A stretch of 64,000 nt of DNA from assembly GCA_027310725.1 (NCBI GenBank), contig DAIDAG010000001.1, positions 1 to 64,000 of the forward strand, in the 5' to 3' direction. How positions within the stretch are numbered: the stretch's first letter is position 1; each line of letters starts with the position of its first letter. The DNA is from Sideroxydans sp. GTDB lineage: Bacteria; Pseudomonadota; Gammaproteobacteria; Burkholderiales; Gallionellaceae. The notes under the pieces are model-generated. The model ran no database searches. It was given only the letters and a program-made list of their open reading frames with translations, and was not told the origin of the DNA. Of the stretch, positions 43,913 through 60,483 are shown in pieces. Both the position numbers and the translations under genes were made by a program.

Positions 43913-45742
43913 ATGATGTGCCCAAATACAAAGCGAACAGATTATCTGCCCCAAGAACTGCATGTTGGGACTGAAGATATTGCGCAACGTAAAAGATTTC
44001 TAGAATTCTCTGATGCCGACATTGAATTGCTGGGTGAGATTCACAAGTATCTGGAGGATAAGTCAATTGATGAATTCTTTATCGATTCGTTTTACCAGCA
44101 TTTATATTCTTTCCCTGCGCTGCAAAAATTACTTCCTGATGAGTCCACAATTAACCGGTTAAAAGCTGTTCAGAGACAATATTTCATGCGCCTGACGGCA
44201 GGTGATTATGGCGATGACTATGTTTTGGATCGCCTGCGAGTGGGGTATGCACATCAGAGGGTTGGGCTAGAGCCCAAGTGGTATACCGGAGCCTATCGGA
44301 AATATTTGTCCTCCTTGCAGCCCATATTGCATGAAATGTATGGCCACGATCATGTTAAATTCATGGCTGCCTATGATGCGTTGTTGAAAGTTGTGTTTTT
44401 GGACATGGAGCTGGCGCTGGATACTTATTTCCACACCACCACGCAAGAATTACTCCGGCTGGCTAACTACGACGCTCTCACGGGCTTGCCTAACCGGGTT
44501 TTGTTCAATGACCGGGTGGAGCAGGAACTCAAAAAAGCTCGCCGCGCTGAGTCTCCTTTGGCGATATTGATGATCGACTTGGATCGATTTAAAGAAGTCA
44601 ATGACACATTGGGGCACGGGAAAGGCGATGTGTTATTGATAGAAGCTGCAAAGCGCATCAGTGGATGCATGCGCGAAACCGATACGGTTGCCCGCTTTGG
44701 GGGCGATGAATTCACAGTTATCTTGCCTGGACTGATTGACAATTTTTATGCTGAGCGCATCGCGCAGAACATAATCCAAGAATTGCACAAGCCGTTTATG
44801 CTGGATACCAATATGGTTAACATTTCAGCCAGTATTGGAATTGCTATTTTCCCAGTTGAAGCACAGGATGTTGAAAGCTTGTTAAAACACGCCGACCAGG
44901 CGATGTATGTGGCCAAGGCGGAAGGGCGGAACCGCTTCAGCTACTTTACTGAGTCCATGCAGCAAGCGGCCAATGAAAAACATGCACTGACTAACGACTT
45001 GCGGCAAGCGCTTTCTCGCCATGAATTGCATGTTTATTACCAGCCCATTGTGGAACTTCGCAGTGGTCGAATTCTCAAGGCCGAAGCTTTGTTACGTTGG
45101 AAGCACCCCAAGCGCGGCATGGTCAGTGCCGCCACCTTCATTCCCTTGGCAGAAGAATCCGGTCTCATTCATGAAATTGGAGATTGGGTACTTAACGAAT
45201 CCATAGATAGTGTGAGGCGCTGGCTCAATCAATATGGGCGCATAATTCAAGTCAGCGTGAACAAATCTCCCATTCAATTTGATCGGAGAGAAGAGATTAC
45301 CTGGGCTGACGCGCTGGACAATTTGAAGTTGCCCGGAAATAGCATCACTGTCGAAATCACTGAGGGGTTGCTGCTCAAGGATTCAAGCAAAGTCAAACAA
45401 CAACTGTTGGAATTCAGGAACAGCGGCATTGAAGTTTCGATAGATGACTTTGGTACGGGTTTTTCCGCACTGTCGTACCTGAAGAAATTTGACATCGACT
45501 ACCTCAAGATTGATCGCTCTTTCATTAAGGATCTGGAACTGGAAGAGAATGATATGGCGCTAACTGAGGCGATCATCGTAATGGCGCACAAGTTGGGCTT
45601 CAAGACTATCGCTGAGGGCGTGGAAACTGAGGGGCAGTTCAGTTTGTTGAAGTCATTCGGATGCGATTATGCGCAAGGTTTTCTATTTTCGCCTGCCGTG
45701 CCCGGGGCGGAATTTGAGCAAATCATTGCTCGACAATCGTGA
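43913..45742 (+). CDS. Globin-coupled diguanylate cyclase/phosphodiesterase (GCS-GGDEF-EAL)
   Basis: A 609-aa cytoplasmic sensor. Residues about 20-175 are a globin-coupled sensor domain with the proximal-heme-His region RVGYAHQRVGLEPKWYTGAY. GGDEF spans about 180-345 with an intact catalytic motif ARFGGDEF and an I-site RETD five residues upstream, so feedback binding of c-di-GMP is expected. EAL spans about 360-605 with AEALLRWKHP and IDDFGTGFSALSYL. It probably couples O2 or NO binding to c-di-GMP synthesis or breakdown. An in-frame second ATG follows directly at 43916. Confidence 0.9.
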   Translation: MMCPNTKRTDYLPQELHVGTEDIAQRKRFLEFSDADIELLGEIHKYLEDKSIDEFFIDSFYQHLYSFPALQKLLPDESTINRLKAVQRQYFMRLTAGDYGDDYVLDRLRVGYAHQRVGLEPKWYTGAYRKYLSSLQPILHEMYGHDHVKFMAAYDALLKVVFLDMELALDTYFHTTTQELLRLANYDALTGLPNRVLFNDRVEQELKKARRAESPLAILMIDLDRFKEVNDTLGHGKGDVLLIEAAKRISGCMRETDTVARFGGDEFTVILPGLIDNFYAERIAQNIIQELHKPFMLDTNMVNISASIGIAIFPVEAQDVESLLKHADQAMYVAKAEGRNRFSYFTESMQQAANEKHALTNDLRQALSRHELHVYYQPIVELRSGRILKAEALLRWKHPKRGMVSAATFIPLAEESGLIHEIGDWVLNESIDSVRRWLNQYGRIIQVSVNKSPIQFDRREEITWADALDNLKLPGNSITVEITEGLLLKDSSKVKQQLLEFRNSGIEVSIDDFGTGFSALSYLKKFDIDYLKIDRSFIKDLELEENDMALTEAIIVMAHKLGFKTIAEGVETEGQFSLLKSFGCDYAQGFLFSPAVPGAEFEQIIARQS

Positions 45743-52820: not shown

Positions 52821-54125
52821 ATGGACGCACATGCTCCGATAGGGCATTATCGCGGCCAAAATACTTTGTCAGCGGAACGGCACTTGCAGTACAACAAAAA
52901 CAGGATTGATGCTTCTTTGCTTGGCAAAATTGTCCTTGCCCGCTTCCTGGAACTCCCTCTCCGGACATTTGACCGCTTCGTCGTTCAAGCGGGAACACCT
53001 GCCAATATTAGCGCCCTGAGTTCGTGGGTGACTGAGGGCTGCTTGGGAGGGGCGCAAGTGGCACATGAGGCGGCCGCAAAATCCATGGGCCATCCATCCT
53101 CAGTTCTGGGAGAAGTTCGTGAAATTGGGGAGGAACTGACGTTTTTCTATCACCGCGATAGCTGCACGCGGGAATACCGGTTCAACGAAGAAGGCATAAG
53201 CCGCTTGATGTCCGATGCGGACTTTCCGCTGGAGTGGGGGCGCGTGCTGCGCAGATTGAGGCTCATCAATACTCGCAATCGTCTGACCCACGGGTTGATT
53301 CGGACGGTGGTGAACCTGCAGGCGGCATATTTGCGCACAGGACAAGGGATGTCGCTCTTGCCATTGACCCAGACAGACATCTCTGCCCGGTTAAGGTTGG
53401 AAGCGAATCTTTCGGTGGTGGCGGATCCTGGCAGGATATCCAGACTGGTGCGCGGATTGTCAATCATGCTGCCGAACAAGAAGGTGATACCGTTAAACAC
53501 CTTGTTCCCAAAGCCTCGGCAGGTCCATTGCCATTTCATTGACCATGTGATAAAAGCCGAAAATGTATGGATGGCCGAAGGGGCTTTGCGCGAGCCGTTG
53601 ACGGACACAGACGTAGCCGATGTTCTGGATCGCGAGTACGGTATTTTCGTGTCGCGGCGCACTGTGACCAATATCCGGCACGATTTGGGGATTCCCGACC
53701 GTCGAAGCCGTGGTCAACGCACGAACTATTTGGCAGCGACGGCGGAGTTTTCTGCATTGGTACCGATGACCCATCAAGCGCTGAGAACGGTAGTCCCTGC
53801 ACATCCTGGAGTGTATGAGATTCAAGCGGCTTCCGCTTCATGGGATGATGAAGAAAATGCAATCTGGGCGACAAGGAGAAGTATGCCGACAATACCCCAC
53901 GGTGTGGTTTATATCGGTTCGACGGGAGACTTGCGCAAGCGCCTTGCGGATCACTTGCGCGGCAACAGCGATAATACGTTGCTCCATCGGCACATCGCAG
54001 GCGGCGCTGCGCGGGTGCGATATCGCCTGCTCAGTGAAGAATGGCGCTTGGCGGAACGGGAGTTGTACCGGGTATTCTGTGAAACCTTTGGCGAGCCGCC
54101 GCTATGTAATCGCATGAGTCCATAA
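52821..54125 (+). CDS. Fusion of a sigma-54 (RpoN)-like DNA-binding region with a GIY-YIG nuclease domain
   Basis: A 434-aa protein. Residues 1-150 match nothing I recognise. Residues about 150-290 read like the C-terminal part of RpoN: INTRNRLTHGLIRTVVNLQA, the HTH-like LLPLTQTDISARL then RISRLVRGLSIMLPNKKVIP, and an RpoN-box equivalent YGIFVSRRTVTNIRHDLGIP (RpoN: ARRTVAKYRE). The sigma-54 activator-interacting N-terminus is absent. Residues about 325-434 form a GIY-YIG domain: HPGVYEIQ, VVYIGSTGDLRKRLADHL, RELYRVF and LCNRMSP supply the Tyr, Tyr, Arg, Glu and Asn expected at the active site. Monocistronic, between c-di-GMP genes. A site-specific nuclease guided by a -24-type DNA reader is possible (inference). 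Confidence 0.75.
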   Translation: MDAHAPIGHYRGQNTLSAERHLQYNKNRIDASLLGKIVLARFLELPLRTFDRFVVQAGTPANISALSSWVTEGCLGGAQVAHEAAAKSMGHPSSVLGEVREIGEELTFFYHRDSCTREYRFNEEGISRLMSDADFPLEWGRVLRRLRLINTRNRLTHGLIRTVVNLQAAYLRTGQGMSLLPLTQTDISARLRLEANLSVVADPGRISRLVRGLSIMLPNKKVIPLNTLFPKPRQVHCHFIDHVIKAENVWMAEGALREPLTDTDVADVLDREYGIFVSRRTVTNIRHDLGIPDRRSRGQRTNYLAATAEFSALVPMTHQALRTVVPAHPGVYEIQAASASWDDEENAIWATRRSMPTIPHGVVYIGSTGDLRKRLADHLRGNSDNTLLHRHIAGGAARVRYRLLSEEWRLAERELYRVFCETFGEPPLCNRMSP

Positions 54126-54202: not shown

Positions 54203-56956
54203 ATGGAAGAAATCTTGCGCAAGCAAGCAAGCAAGCAAGCAAGCAAGCCTGATAGCAGTCTTGCTCCCACTTCCCTGCTCTGGACTGCGAGGCCGGGGAT
54301 GATGCGGTCTCTCAATGAGAGCATCGCGATAGTTGTGCGCACACTGGGTATTGATGAAGCTGCCGTCGCCAGGCGCAAAGCCTTTCTGGAAATTTCCGAT
54401 GCCGATGTGGCATGTTTGCAGACGCTGCACGCATCTTTGCAGGGTAGAACGCCGGATTTCGTTGACGCCTTTTATTCCCATCTATTGTCATACGAAGAAA
54501 CCCGCCGCTTTATTCCCGATCCCCATGTACTGGAACACCTGAAGCAGACCCAGGCAGCTTACTTTGATAGCCTGACTGCCGGCGACTATGGGCAAGACTA
54601 TATACATCACCGTCTTCGGGTCGGAGTTGCTCACCAACACGTCGGTCTCGCGCCGGAATGGTATTTGGGAGCGTACAGCAAATATCTGGCTGGATTGTTC
54701 CCTGAAATCTGGCAGCGCCTCGATGCGAACCCGGAAGCATTTATTGCCACCTGCCAGGCACTTATCAAGATTGTCCTGCTGGATATGGGCTTGGCCATGG
54801 ATACCTATATGCAGGCCAATTCGCAAACTATCCAGACCCTGAAGGAGTATGCCGACGTCGTATTTGCCAGCATTCCGGATGGACTGGTTGTACTTTCGCC
54901 CAACCTCACTATTCTGTCCGCCAACAGGGATTTCCTGAAGCGTTTCGGACTGACGGAAGCAATCGTGCACGGTGCCTGTCTGACGGATGTGCTGGTGGCC
55001 GATGGATTGCGTGGGCGAGCCCTGGAAGTATTGGCTACCGGAGATGCCCAGCATGATCTGCCTTTCAGTATGGGGCTGGTCGGCAGTTCCGAGCGTAAGC
55101 CGATGAGCGTAACCATCGCTGGAATACGCCTTGCAGAAGAAGAAGAAGAAGAAGCGCGCCTGCTTTTGATTGTGAAGGACCTTACCGAAGAAGAGAAATT
55201 GCGTACAGCCGCATTGGAATCCGAACGGCGTTTCAGGGATCTTGCCGAAACTGCGCACGACGGTATTATCATGAGCGATTCAGAAGGGCAGATTGTCTAT
55301 TTCAATCGGGCTGCAGAGCATATGTTCGGCTATCGCCGCAATCAGGTCATGGCGCGGCCGATCACAATCGTTCTGCCGGAACTGTTTTCTGACCAGTTGG
55401 AAGAAAGAAGGCGGCGCACGGCGGTGTGGGAGGCTTTGGGGAAACGCCGTGATGATACCGTCTTCATGGTGGAGGGCTCTAGCAGCGCCTTCAAAGGCGC
55501 CAAGGGCGAGATTATTACCTATATGTTGCGAGACCTGACCGAGCGCAAACAATTCGAGAACCAGTTGATGCATCTGGCGCATCACGATTCGCTGACCAAT
55601 CTTCCCAACCGCAAGTTTTTCCGGGAACGCCTCGGCATCAGCCTGAACGAGGCGACGCTGAAAGGCGAACAGCTGGCGGTTCTGTTTCTCGATCTGGATC
55701 GGTTCAAACTGATCAACGATACGCTCGGGCATACGATGGGCGACAGGCTGCTACTGATGGTGGGCGAACGGCTTGCCGGCTGTTTCCGCAGGGGCGACGT
55801 GCTGGCCCGCTTGGGAGGGGATGAGTTCGTGATGTTGTTGCAGGGACTTTCCGAAATACAGGATGCCGCGCTCGTTGCCCAGAAAATCCAGGTTGCCTTA
55901 TCTCAGCCGTTTCAGCTGGAAGAACATGAGGTTTTTGCGGCAGCCAGCATCGGCATCGCACTTTATCCCTCGGATGCCACTGATGCGGACAGCCTCATCC
56001 GGTGTGCCGACTGCGCCATGTACCAGGCCAAAGAGCAAGGGGCGGGGTATCAGTTCTATCAGCCCGAACTGGAAGGCTTGTCGGCCGAACGGCTTGTACT
56101 GGAGAACAGCTTGCGCAAGGCCATGGAACGAGGCGAACTGCTGCTGCACTATCAGCCCAAGATTGAGCTTGCAAGCGGCACAGTGATCGGACTGGAGGCG
56201 CTGCTGCGCTGGAATCACCCAACCAAGGGCATGATCTCGCCGGACCAGTTTATTCCGCTTGCGGAGGAAACCGGGCTGATCGTCCCGATCGGCGAATGGG
56301 TTTTGCGGACAGCGTGCTTGCAAATCAAGGACTGGCAGCAGAAGGGCATCTTGATTCCTGTGGCGATTAATCTGTCGGCTCGTCAATTCAGGCATCTGTC
56401 GACCGTCAGCGAAACGAGGGAAGGCAATCATCGGGAAGGACATGCAGAACGGGGCCTGGTGGAGACTATCGACAAAGTGCTTAGTGAGACGGGAGTAGAT
56501 CCCTCCAGCCTGGAACTGGAGATTACCGAAAGCATTTTGATGCAGAATATCTCGATGGCGGCTAACATCTTGCAGGCGTTGAGCGGGAAAGGGATGCGCA
56601 TCTTTATCGACGATTTCGGGACCGGCTATTCTTCGCTGAGCTATCTCAAGCGTCTGCCTATCGATACCATCAAGATCGACAAATCTTTTGTGAGGGATAT
56701 TACGACCGATCAGGACGATGCGGCGATCGTGGCGACTATTATCGCCATGGCTCGCAGCTTGCGCCTCAAGGTGGTGGCCGAAGGAGTGGAAACTCGGGAA
56801 CAGTTTGATTTTCTGCTCGAGCACGGCTGCGATGCCATGCAAGGCTATTTATACAGCCAACCGCTGGCAGCGGAAGACATCCCCCTTTTGCTATGGAGGT
56901 CGCACAATTCCGGCACCCTGGTTACTGGCGAGAAATCGATTCCCGCAGGGGTATAG
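54203..56956 (+). CDS. Globin-PAS-PAS-GGDEF-EAL c-di-GMP protein with a repeat-bearing 5' end
   Basis: A 917-aa sensor. Residues 7-16 are encoded by (AAGC)7 and read KQASKQASK-like; then a globin-coupled sensor (about 40-205; RVGVAHQHVGLAPEWYLGAY), two PAS domains (about 215-325 and 345-455; SIPDGLVVLSPNL and TAHDGIIMSDSEGQIVYFNR), GGDEF (ARLGGDEF, I-site RRGD) and EAL (GLEALLRWNHPTKGMISPDQ; IDDFGTGYSSLSYLKRLPID). The EAL domain carries a short charged insertion (SETREGNHREGHAE). TAAGGGA precedes the ATG. An in-frame ATGATG near 54300 just ahead of the globin domain could serve as a second start if the repeat shifts the frame. Confidence 0.88.
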   Translation: MEEILRKQASKQASKPDSSLAPTSLLWTARPGMMRSLNESIAIVVRTLGIDEAAVARRKAFLEISDADVACLQTLHASLQGRTPDFVDAFYSHLLSYEETRRFIPDPHVLEHLKQTQAAYFDSLTAGDYGQDYIHHRLRVGVAHQHVGLAPEWYLGAYSKYLAGLFPEIWQRLDANPEAFIATCQALIKIVLLDMGLAMDTYMQANSQTIQTLKEYADVVFASIPDGLVVLSPNLTILSANRDFLKRFGLTEAIVHGACLTDVLVADGLRGRALEVLATGDAQHDLPFSMGLVGSSERKPMSVTIAGIRLAEEEEEEARLLLIVKDLTEEEKLRTAALESERRFRDLAETAHDGIIMSDSEGQIVYFNRAAEHMFGYRRNQVMARPITIVLPELFSDQLEERRRRTAVWEALGKRRDDTVFMVEGSSSAFKGAKGEIITYMLRDLTERKQFENQLMHLAHHDSLTNLPNRKFFRERLGISLNEATLKGEQLAVLFLDLDRFKLINDTLGHTMGDRLLLMVGERLAGCFRRGDVLARLGGDEFVMLLQGLSEIQDAALVAQKIQVALSQPFQLEEHEVFAAASIGIALYPSDATDADSLIRCADCAMYQAKEQGAGYQFYQPELEGLSAERLVLENSLRKAMERGELLLHYQPKIELASGTVIGLEALLRWNHPTKGMISPDQFIPLAEETGLIVPIGEWVLRTACLQIKDWQQKGILIPVAINLSARQFRHLSTVSETREGNHREGHAERGLVETIDKVLSETGVDPSSLELEITESILMQNISMAANILQALSGKGMRIFIDDFGTGYSSLSYLKRLPIDTIKIDKSFVRDITTDQDDAAIVATIIAMARSLRLKVVAEGVETREQFDFLLEHGCDAMQGYLYSQPLAAEDIPLLLWRSHNSGTLVTGEKSIPAGV
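54221..54248 (+). repeat. (AAGC)7 tetranucleotide repeat inside a coding start
   Basis: Seven perfect AAGC units, preceded by GC of a partial unit, starting seven codons after the ATG of the globin-PAS-GGDEF-EAL gene. Gain or loss of one 4-bp unit would shift the frame, the classic basis of contingency loci. Confidence 0.8.
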
Positions 56957-57394: not shown

Positions 57395-60300
57395 ATGCAC
57401 GCTCCTAATCGAACTTGGTTGCGCCCGTCTCTTGCGATGTTGCCTCCGATTATTGCATTCGGTCTGCAATGGGTGTTCTGGTCCGCTATTCGGCCATACG
57501 CATGGCTCCTGTTTCTCCCTACCGTATTTATCAGTTCCTGGATCGGCGGACTCATTCCGGGGCTGATATCCACAGTCTTATCCGCTACACTTGTCAGCTG
57601 GTTCTTCATTCCGCCCCAATTTTCTTTCAGCGGTAAGACGCCCATGTCGCTTTCTTCGATCGGCCTATTTTGCATCATGGGTGTTCTGTTCAGCATATTT
57701 CATGATCGGCTGAGAAGAGCGAATCAGAAGGCTGAAGAGATCAATGCCAGTTTGCGCACCAGCGAGGAGAATCTTTCCGTCACGCTTAGTTCGATTGGCG
57801 ATGCGGTAATGACTACCGATGCGCAAGGACGTGTCACCCGCCTGAATGTCATAGCAGAACGCCTTACCGGCTGGTCGCAGGCGGAGGCGATTACCCTTCC
57901 GGTGGCCGATATCTTTCACATCATCAACCAGAATACGCGTCAGCCCGCACCGAATCCCGTGGAAGCTGCCTTGGCGCAAGGCATCGTTCATGGCTTGGCC
58001 AATGACACCGTGTTGATTGCGCGTGACGGCAGCGAGATTCCAATCGCTGACAGTTGTGCCCCCATTCGCAATCGCGATGGGCTTGTAATCGGGACCATAC
58101 TGGTCTTCCACGATGTAACCAGGGAATACGCTGCTCAGAAGGCGTTGCGGGACAGCTCCACGCGCATTCAGACCATTCTCAATACCGTTGTTGAAGGCAT
58201 CATCAGTATCAATGAACAAGGCATCATTGAGACCCTGAACCCGGCAGCAGAGCGCATCTTCGACTATTCCGCCGCCGAGATTATTGGGCAGAACGTCAAC
58301 GTCCTGATGCCCGAACCTTACCATAGCCAGCACGACGGATTCATCGAGCGCTACTGCACTACCGGCAAAGCGCATATCATCGGTAACAGCAGCGGACGCG
58401 AGGTGAAAGGTCGACGCAGGGACGGCAGCACATTCCCTCTGGAGCTGGCGGTGAGTGAGATGTGGCTGGGTGATCGTCGCTACTTCACCGGAAGCACGCG
58501 CGACATATCGGCGCGCAAGGAGGCCGAGAATCAGCTGGACCGCTTTTTCTCGCTCTCGCTGGATATGCTATGCATCTCCAGTGCAGAAGGGTATTTCAAG
58601 CGCGTCAATCCTGCGTTTACGCTGGCGCTGGGCTGGAGTGTCGAGGAGATGTTGTCGCATCCATTCCTTTTTTTCGTGCACCCGGATGATCAGGTCGCAA
58701 CGTTGCACGAAGTCGAAAGGCAAATTAAGGCCGGTGAGAGTGTTCTGCATTTCGAGAACCGCTATCGGCACAAGAATGGCTCATGGCGTCTGCTGTCATG
58801 GGTATCCAAACCTCATACCGGCGGACTCATGTTCGCGACCGCGCGCGATATCACCGAACAACGACAAGCTGAACAAGCCCTGATTGCCGCAAGGGATCAA
58901 GCCGAATTGGCCAATCATGCCAAGGATTCGTTCCTCGCCACCATGAGCCATGAAATCCGGACGCCTCTTACCGGCATGCTGGGGATGCTTGAACTGCTTT
59001 CCATGAGCGATCTTGACAAAGAACAACGCGAAACGCTGGACGTGGCATGGGAATCCGGCCGGGGTTTGTTGCGCATCGTCAGCGATATCCTCGATTGGTC
59101 CAAGATTGAGGAGGGCAAGCTGGAGCTGTCGCTACGCTCCACTTCAATATCGCAGTTGCTGATCGAAGTGGTCAACACCTATTCGCGCGTGGCCAGTTCC
59201 AAGAGCCTCATCTTGAAACAGCGCCTCGATCCGCGCATCAGCTCTGCGCACATCGTCGACCCTCTGCGCCTTGCGCAGGTGCTGAACAACTTTGTCAGCA
59301 ATGCGATCAAGTTCACCGAACATGGAGAAATCGAGTTGCGCGCGGAATTCCAGGAGAGGTGCGACAGCGACGAGAGAATACGCTTCTCTGTCAGGGATAC
59401 CGGCATCGGGATATCCATGGCAGCCCAGCAGCGCCTGTTTCAGCATTACCGGCAGGAGAGAGCGCGGACACAGCCCGGATGTATGGGGGTACCGGGCTGG
59501 GGTTGGCGATCTGCCGGCGATTGTCGGAGATGATGGACGGGCAAATCGGAGTGGAAAGCGAGCTGGGCCGGGGATCCACCTTCAGCATCACGCTAACACT
59601 GCCGATTTCCGCTGCAATTGGGGAGGGACTGCAAATTCAAAGCTTGGAGGTAAAACACAAGAAAATTGAGCCGCTGTTTGATGGTGGCACGGAGGCCCCG
59701 TTGGTGCTGGCGGTCGATGACCATCCGATCAACCGCGATTTACTGGCGCGCCAGATCAGGTTGCTCGGCCTGCGCGCTGAAACGGCCGAGAATGGACTGG
59801 TGGCACTCTCAATGTGGAAGGAGGGAGGCTTTATGCTGGTCATTACCGATTGCCACATGCCCGAAATGGATGGTTATGCACTTTCGCGCGCGATACGCAA
59901 GATCGAGGCCGAACAGGGGAGGGCGCACATGCCTATCATCGCATGGACGGCCAACGCGCTTGCCGAGGAATCGGATCGTTGCCAAGCTGCCGGCATGGAT
60001 GAATTGCTGGTCAAACCGGCCGACATGACGCGATTAAGAAAGATTTTGGCGAAGCAGCTTGCTGTCGCCGAACCCGGTGACACTCAGCCCGCTGCATCAT
60101 TGCATGATGCCGAAAACGGGGAAGCCGGAAGTCTGATCGATTATGACGTGTTGAATATGGTGGTGCCGGACAAGGAAGCCCAAATTCGATTGCTGAGGGA
60201 TTTCCAGGCTCATATCCGAACAGACCTCGCCAAGCTGATGGAAGCTCTGTTGCAAGATGAACCCGTTGATGCGGCAAACATCGTCCACCGCATGAAGGGC

Positions 60301-60483
60301 TCCAGTCGCATGGTCGGTGCCATGCGTATGGCAAATGCCTGTGCAGCCATCGAACAGGCTGCACGCAATGCCGATATGGCTGGGGCACGGCAGAAGAAGG
60401 TGTTTCTGGATAATATTATCGTGCAAATGGAAACATTGATTGACTCTTTAATGAGCGCAGCAAACCCGATGGCGACCAAATGA
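57395..60483 (+). pseudogene. Hybrid sensor histidine kinase (DUF4118-like TM, PAS x3, HisKA, HATPase, REC, HPT) broken by a frameshift
   Basis: Frame 1 (57395-59533) gives about four N-terminal transmembrane helices, three PAS domains (near residues 125-245, 255-370 and 375-500) and HisKA with FLATMSHEIRTPLTGMLGML, then enters HATPase (FSVRDTGIGISMAAQQRLFQ). At a GAGAGAG run (59456-59462) it loses frame and stops. The other frame resumes exactly there with ARMYGGTGLGLAICRRLSEM and continues through a receiver domain (LVLAVDDHPINRDLL; VITDCHMPEMDGYAL; LLVKPAD) and an HPT domain (ANIVHRMKGSSRMVGAMRMA) to 60483. The full product would be about 1030 aa. Either a genuine slippage mutation or a base error. 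TTGGAGG precedes the ATG; the stop overlaps the next gene (ATGA). Confidence 0.8.

Follow-up and report, generated by a model that had tools for sequence, protein, structure and literature searches.

We identified a nuclease-like gene on a 64,000-nucleotide stretch of a Sideroxydans sp. genome (hereafter, the window). An open reading frame of 434 amino acids (52821-54125, plus strand) had been predicted from sequence alone to combine the C-terminal DNA-binding layout of the sigma factor RpoN (sigma-54) with a GIY-YIG nuclease domain. It is the first gene of a two-gene cassette of approximately 4 kb, in which the partner is usually a sensor-GGDEF-EAL gene. The window partner contains two microsatellite tracts, each adjoining a sequence that resembles a sigma-54 promoter (Table 1).

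Table 1. Features of the nuclease cassette in the window
Feature	Position	Strand	Basis or context
Sigma-54-like/GIY-YIG nuclease gene	52884..54125	+	Conserved TTG start; listed ORF from ATG 52821
Sigma-54 DNA-binding domain (ELH-HTH and RpoN-box part)	53259..53711	+	Pfam PF04552; PDB profile match
RpoN-box equivalent SRRTVTNIRH	53652..53681	+	Arg pair lines up with the RpoN-box RR
GIY-YIG catalytic domain	53793..54122	+	Pfam, invariant residues, Foldseek
Partner: Protoglobin-PAS-PAS-GGDEF-EAL protein, 917 aa read through tract	54203..56956	+	ORF list, Pfam
-24/-12-like site 1, TGGAAGAAATCTTGC (GG-N10-GC)	54204..54218	+	Directly before (GCAA)n
Tetranucleotide tract (GCAA)7.5 = TTGCG(CAAG)7	54219..54248	+	5' end of downstream ORF
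-24/-12-like site 2, TGGAATACGCCTTGC	55120..55134	+	Within PAS coding region, directly before (GAA)n
In-frame trinucleotide tract (AGA/GAA)6.7, poly-Glu	55135..55154	+	PAS region of partner

Residues 147-297 of the nuclease match the Pfam family Sigma54_DBD (E 5.3e-8; 33.2 bits, cut-off 22.8), and the same stretch matches the NCBIfam model rpoN_sigma (TIGR02395, E 3.1e-9). We aligned the window protein with 36 full-length homologues from 41 loci (L035, L039, L041, L050 and L055, being partial or broken, were omitted). Sigma54_DBD is matched by all 37 aligned sequences and GIY-YIG by 35 of them at E ≤ 0.01; the window protein taken alone reaches 18.7 bits at residues 361-389 (E 0.0021), under the GIY-YIG cut-off of 22.6. 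Eight residues that we take to be of the GIY-YIG catalytic type (G309, Y311, Y343, G345, R353, H357, E391 and N409, numbered from the TTG start) are invariant in 37/37, in agreement with the original prediction. A PDB search with the 37-sequence profile recovered RpoN (5ui5) at E 3e-15 with the RpoN-box arginine pair aligned. The AlphaFold2 model of the nuclease (mean pLDDT 85, pTM 0.75) likewise agrees with an RpoN-like central part: sigma-54 chains rank first in Foldseek (E 1.8e-8), and much weaker matches follow to R.Eco29kI (E 0.028) and UvrC (target TM ~0.65). The fusion homologues, which come from Pseudomonadota and Chloroflexota, among others, keep the two parts in a single gene beside a conserved neighbor; carriers include Diaphorobacter sp. 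JS3051 and Sulfuricystis multivorans. An assembly artefact or accidental fusion is excluded by the 36 further full-length homologues with the same fusion.

The match to TIGR02395 covers only model positions 291-433 and scores 36.4 bits, where the equivalog cut-off is 277.35; a full-length RpoN equivalog, including the activator-contacting Region I, is not found with this model, and Region I is absent as had been predicted. Since the cut-off is missed so widely, we regard the protein as carrying a sigma-54-derived DNA reader and do not file it as a sigma factor. Sigma-54 no longer binds the -24 element when R455 or R456 is changed to alanine, and its ELH-HTH region binds -12 (PMC7175178). A search of the window genome with PF04552 matched only the two nuclease copies that it carries; no ordinary RpoN gene was found with this model in an assembly that is 65% complete.

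A TTG codon (often TTGCAG) matching window position 52884 is kept in most homologue starts compared, and homology between loci begins at approximately this position. Because of these two observations, the 21 N-terminal residues read from ATG 52821 are probably not translated as part of the protein. Read by eye, the sequence ahead of the TTG start shows a GG-N10-GC arrangement in the window and in its paralogue; none was seen in the other homologue starts inspected in this way.

Pairwise comparisons of loci (plus strand, E 1e-10) delimit the cassette. The stretch that many loci share runs from the start of the nuclease gene to approximately the end of the next gene and then stops. The window genome contains a second cassette copy on contig C36 (nuclease 71% identical), and its two copies are 78% identical over 4.1 kb; L015 and L024 are 90% identical over 3.6 kb, and L008 and L009 82% over 3.9 kb. 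Longer flanks are shared by close relatives, such as L017/L019, L031/L034 and L032/L033. No shared cassette ends or terminal repeats were seen when the ends were compared by eye. Elsewhere in the window genome (G000:C2:21724-21801), a 26-residue fragment shares 81% identity with the N-terminal portion of the nuclease and is perhaps the relic of a third copy.

In almost all loci examined, the partner is a signaling gene. A globin domain resembling the one in the window partner is encoded downstream in 28 of 46 loci, a count that leaves aside L001, which repeats the window, and includes several loci that end too early. Other GGDEF-EAL partners, typed with Pfam, are led by PilJ (L016), GAF (L032), DUF4118 (L036) or dCache (L048). 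In Chloroflexota, the partners include a GAF-PAS-GGDEF protein (L051) and a histidine kinase (L049). The L047 partner is a GAF-only protein, and the exception to signaling partners is L054, whose next gene encodes an HTH-cupin regulator. PilJ-type partners occupy two separate places in the partner tree, suggesting that sensors have been exchanged. Two plasmid relatives each have a gene annotated as 'GIY-YIG nuclease family protein' with an 'EAL domain-containing protein' next in order. Two copies of the site plus tract flank a GGDEF gene in L031 and L034 (approximately +100 to +2440 downstream of the nuclease), which looks like a second cargo gene inserted at the tract. Two further signaling genes lie in the window itself: another globin-GGDEF-EAL gene (43913-45742, by eye), which has neither a perfect microsatellite of at least 15 nt nor an adjoining nuclease and is thus a natural control, and a hybrid histidine kinase (57395-60483) apparently split into two overlapping frames (712 and 374 amino acids), perhaps by a frameshift in the gene or the assembly.

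Neither the nuclease nor the partner has a PADLOC match, and the earlier idea of a defense device finds no support. The conserved partner is a signaling gene and not a methylase; a cytosine methyltransferase annotated on one plasmid lies approximately 7 kb away and is not adjacent. We found no nuclease match in phage records or in two IMG/VR scans, from which the tract pattern is also absent; matches in PHROGs have E 0.053 or worse, and the best viral fold match has E 1.2e-3.

These observations bear on a selfish or homing origin, in which a free-standing GIY-YIG nuclease would spread together with a signaling gene and the tracts would mark its cut site as scars of repair or points of recombination. 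Homology limited to the gene pair between many loci (L015/L024 and the window-genome copies, for example), a patchy distribution (6 of 399 genomes, below), the two plasmid copies and the additional gene between site-plus-tract copies in L031/L034 would all fit such an element. However, a homing endonuclease usually lacks its own target or interrupts it, whereas the putative target sites here are intact both beside and inside the element. A signaling partner in nearly every locus examined, L054 excepted, and the lack of matches in phages or viral contigs also speak against homing, which we consider rather improbable. The original suggestion of a selfish element keeps a low probability, given that the gene pair moves as a cassette.

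The first tract lies at the 5' end of the partner. Of the 41 loci, 37 extend beyond the nuclease gene, and 33 of these have TTGCG(CAAG)n starting 30-518 bp after it. The tract in L054 is an imperfect AAGC repeat without the GG, and three Chloroflexota loci have no GCAA tract. The two cassette copies are the only places in the window genome with CAAGCAAGCAAGCAAG. The number of units (n) ranges from 3 to 31 across loci. Both n = 28 and n = 31 occur in genome G106 (L084 and L085; contigs C9 and C30), a hint that tract length is influenced in trans, genome-wide; the C9 tract (n = 28) follows a nuclease relic, and an intact copy lies elsewhere in the same genome. In L042, a run of N interrupts the tract, with at least nine GCAA units to either side.

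The reading frame of the leader depends on n. Over 42 distinct tracts (L042 entered by its first part), n mod 3 is 2 in 20, 0 in 15 and 1 in 7. A start codon lies four codons before the TTG in 38/42, and in the frame that reads TTG CGC a TGA stop follows right after the tract in 18/42. The same frame continues into the globin-GGDEF-EAL reading frame in the window, where n = 7, and in its paralogue, where n = 4. Internal starts may permit translation in every state, and ATG 54299 is a possible alternative start of the window partner. Because such later starts exist, on/off switching of the partner by a change of one GCAA unit is only plausible.

The second tract, (GAA)n, lies within the partner gene in 33 listed cases, Chloroflexota included; L032, L036, L047 and L048 have the first tract and no second tract of at least 18 nt. 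The glutamate runs, detected by at least four GAA so that interrupted runs could be missed, contain 297 GAA and 0 GAG codons; downstream in the same 34 genes there are 670 GAA and 738 GAG. We count the exclusive use of GAA as a probable sign of tract turnover. Perfect microsatellites are otherwise scarce. Only three of at least 15 nt occur in the 64 kb window, namely the two cassette tracts and a GGCGG repeat. We scanned 571,729 bases of loci, which overlap or are nearly identical in part, for perfect repeats of at least 18 nt (units of 1-8) and found (GCAA)n, (GAA)n and only two others. L023 has a perfect CGGAATCA octamer array of 16.8 copies located 5.8 kb before the end of the nuclease gene.

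Sigma-54 -24/-12 sites have GG-N10-GC spacing, and this spacing recurs beside both tracts. The motif TGG[AC]A-N6-TTGC, derived from the first-tract set, is found exactly and directly before the tract in 38 of those 42 distinct tracts. Its GG is complete in 42 of 43 first-site rows (the L083r row is the same record as L020), the form TGGCA-N6-TTGC is present in L040, L047 and L084r, and L046 is two bases off. The first site overlaps the leader start codon (RTG-G), so the start alone could preserve the TG; L017, L037 and L053, three of the four tracts without a start, have lost the overlapping codon and kept the GG.

Before (GAA)n, the exact motif is present in 27 of 33 rows. Deviations include L028, which is unreadable (N), L038 and L046, each one base off, and three Chloroflexota with TGGCA-N6-TTGA. 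In both contexts, which are unrelated, the tract begins 0 or 1 nt after TTGC. The second site lies in coding sequence, and codon usage there can be examined in genes chosen only by the protein motif that surrounds LAE. In 29/30 genes, T is the third codon base ahead of GG although the amino acid varies (ACT, GCT, TCT, AAT; L038 has ACC), and the leucine codon of the site is CTT in 30/30, whereas CTT makes up 12% of leucine codons downstream in 29 of these genes. By this codon evidence, two synonymous positions of site 2 are kept constant at the DNA level.

The motif and the repeats go together at these loci. We counted 88 motif sites in 1.23 Mb of loci (both strands), of which 64 are followed by a repeat of at least 12 nt and 24 are not; random positions have such a repeat in 75 of 20,000 cases. 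The window genome contains 160 TGGMA-N6-TTGC sites and 34 matches to the reversed pattern. Among the first 30 of the 160, a repeat of at least 12 nt follows only the two cassette sites, and one other site has a 10-nt match. The site alone thus does not make a repeat.

One alternative is that the protein is a regulator that binds both sites to control transcription, through autoregulation, a road-block or competition with sigma-54 polymerase, and that the repeats slip on their own. The sigma-54 domain is the most widely recognized part of the protein (37/37, against 35/37 for GIY-YIG), and the stop codon of the nuclease gene overlaps the leader ATG as ATGA in several loci, an adjacency that makes feedback control natural. 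Such a role would not, however, lead one to expect catalytic-type residues invariant in every aligned sequence, a binding site inside PAS coding sequence flush with a second kind of repeat, or tracts that begin 0-1 nt after TTGC in both contexts. We therefore regard a purely regulatory role as unlikely, if still worth weighing.

Both tracts vary in length between nearly identical sequences. L008 (a Diaphorobacter plasmid) and two metagenome-assembled genomes (L044 and L045) align over 9.4 kb with one substitution; their indels are one additional GCAA unit and six or five additional GAA units, a three-base gap at the very end being an alignment edge. L044 and L045 differ by no substitution and by one GAA unit. 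In L016 and L018, whose flanks are 98-99% identical, n is 6 and 5. Over 73 pairs with similar flanks, n is equal in 22. Length polymorphism between otherwise identical sequences, by which contingency loci are judged, is therefore seen at both tracts. Ordinary slippage could account for this variation.

The distribution of the tracts follows that of the nuclease. Among 399 genomes of the order, six encode the nuclease (profile search, E 1e-20). TTGCG(CAAG)3 occurs in the same six, each tract lying just downstream of the nuclease gene or, in G106:C9, of its relic. TTGCR(GAA)n occurs in five genomes, all of them nuclease carriers and always at the cassettes; in the sixth carrier (G044), the partner is cut short before the (GAA)n point. 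Reversed-pattern controls gave 0 matches in the 399 genomes. The loci have common ancestry, and some hardly differ from one another; the locus counts therefore greatly exceed the number of independent coincidences.

The family also occurs in 2 of 398 genomes sampled across the phylum and in 2 of 266 sampled across the class, the only new member being G931, which was found after the motif had been defined. Here (AGA)6.7 follows TGGTATGTACCTTGC, and both GG-N10-GC and TTGC recur; the fourth base of the motif differs (TGGTA) and there is no GCAA tract. The (AGA)6.7 tract is the only repeat of at least 14 nt (units of 2-8) in 14 kb, and the next gene encodes a PAS-GGDEF-EAL protein (by eye). A site before a repeat was thus predicted out of sample and found in one case of one.

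This distribution also bears on whether the sites are simply true sigma-54 promoters beside ordinary contingency repeats, the nuclease being a passenger of sigma-54 ancestry with no action on them. The sites fit the sigma-54 consensus, and three of the first kind have TGGCA-N6-TTGC. Against this explanation, sites with tracts occur only where the nuclease occurs in the 399 genomes, one of the sites lies mid-gene, and tracts that begin at TTGC are left unexplained. We judge it very improbable.

With moderate confidence, we favor a reading of the sequence data in which the nuclease is addressed to the sites by its sigma-54-like module and nicking or cutting there drives changes in repeat length, switching and tuning c-di-GMP signaling. 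The module would bind TGG[AC]A-N6-TTGC with its RpoN box on -24 and its HTH on -12. The GIY-YIG domain would then nick or cut the DNA at TTGC or immediately 3' of it, at the point where the tracts start, and slippage during repair would add or remove repeat units. The A:T pair opened by the sigma-54 holoenzyme lies immediately 3' of the -12 GC (PMC4496707), and both tract types start at this position. A one-unit change in (GCAA)n would shift the leader frame of the sensor-GGDEF-EAL gene, a possible on/off switch, and a change in (GAA)n would alter an acidic loop in the partner's PAS domain, possibly tuning it. The outcome would be a portable, self-diversifying cassette for c-di-GMP signaling. 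In a variant of this mechanism, the enzyme would trim over-long tracts.

Of the roles first suggested for the protein, a nuclease directed to -24/-12-like promoter DNA fits best, given the sites before both tracts. The original prediction had overlooked the repeats and the conserved downstream gene. Because each site abuts a hypervariable microsatellite, the likely function of that nuclease differs from the one first envisaged. A broader version, to which we give about even chances, is a microsatellite-writing enzyme: -24/-12-like sequences would serve as address tags, and the fused nuclease would make any short repeat 3' of a tag hypermutable. The parts of the linked system are known, and the function proposed for it is probable. 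We found no description of a linked nuclease-site-tract system among the matches listed in the open-access full-text literature, outside of which subscription journals mostly lie.

Several known systems resemble parts of the cassette. Contingency loci, such as those of tetranucleotide phase variation in Haemophilus, likewise have a length-variable, frame-shifting tetranucleotide tract near the start of a gene; here, by contrast, the tracts are linked to a nuclease gene and to address sites that resemble promoters. The usual explanation of phase-variable microsatellites is passive slippage together with general modifiers, and we know of no simple-sequence contingency locus with a dedicated linked nuclease. 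A term search of a 2025 review (PMC11868660) gave no instance of 'nuclease' or 'endonuclease' in its main text. Region III of sigma-54 shares the ELH-HTH, the RpoN box with its arginine pair and a -24/-12 site with GG-N10-GC, whereas the protein described here lacks Region I, has a C-terminal GIY-YIG nuclease and is associated with sites that abut microsatellites. GIY-YIG nucleases (the UvrC N-domain, R.Eco29kI and free-standing homing endonucleases) share the catalytic fold and residues; unlike theirs, the DNA-binding part here comes from a sigma factor and the conserved partner is a signaling gene rather than a methyltransferase. The cassette can also be compared with diversity-generating retroelements and Hin-type invertases, in which a dedicated enzyme acts with cis sites to switch or diversify a gene linked to it. 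It differs in having a nuclease in place of a reverse transcriptase or recombinase and a microsatellite as the variable element.

If this interpretation is correct, a cis-bound, promoter-guided nuclease serving two kinds of microsatellite would represent a new way of programming local hypermutation, in which the DNA reader of a sigma factor has taken on a targeting role. A gene of any kind could become locally hypervariable once it carries the tag. Site, repeat and enzyme together form a simple test system and would offer an experimental handle on the expansion and contraction of repeat tracts. As a portable cassette that switches and tunes c-di-GMP signaling, the system would add a new layer of c-di-GMP control in environmental bacteria.
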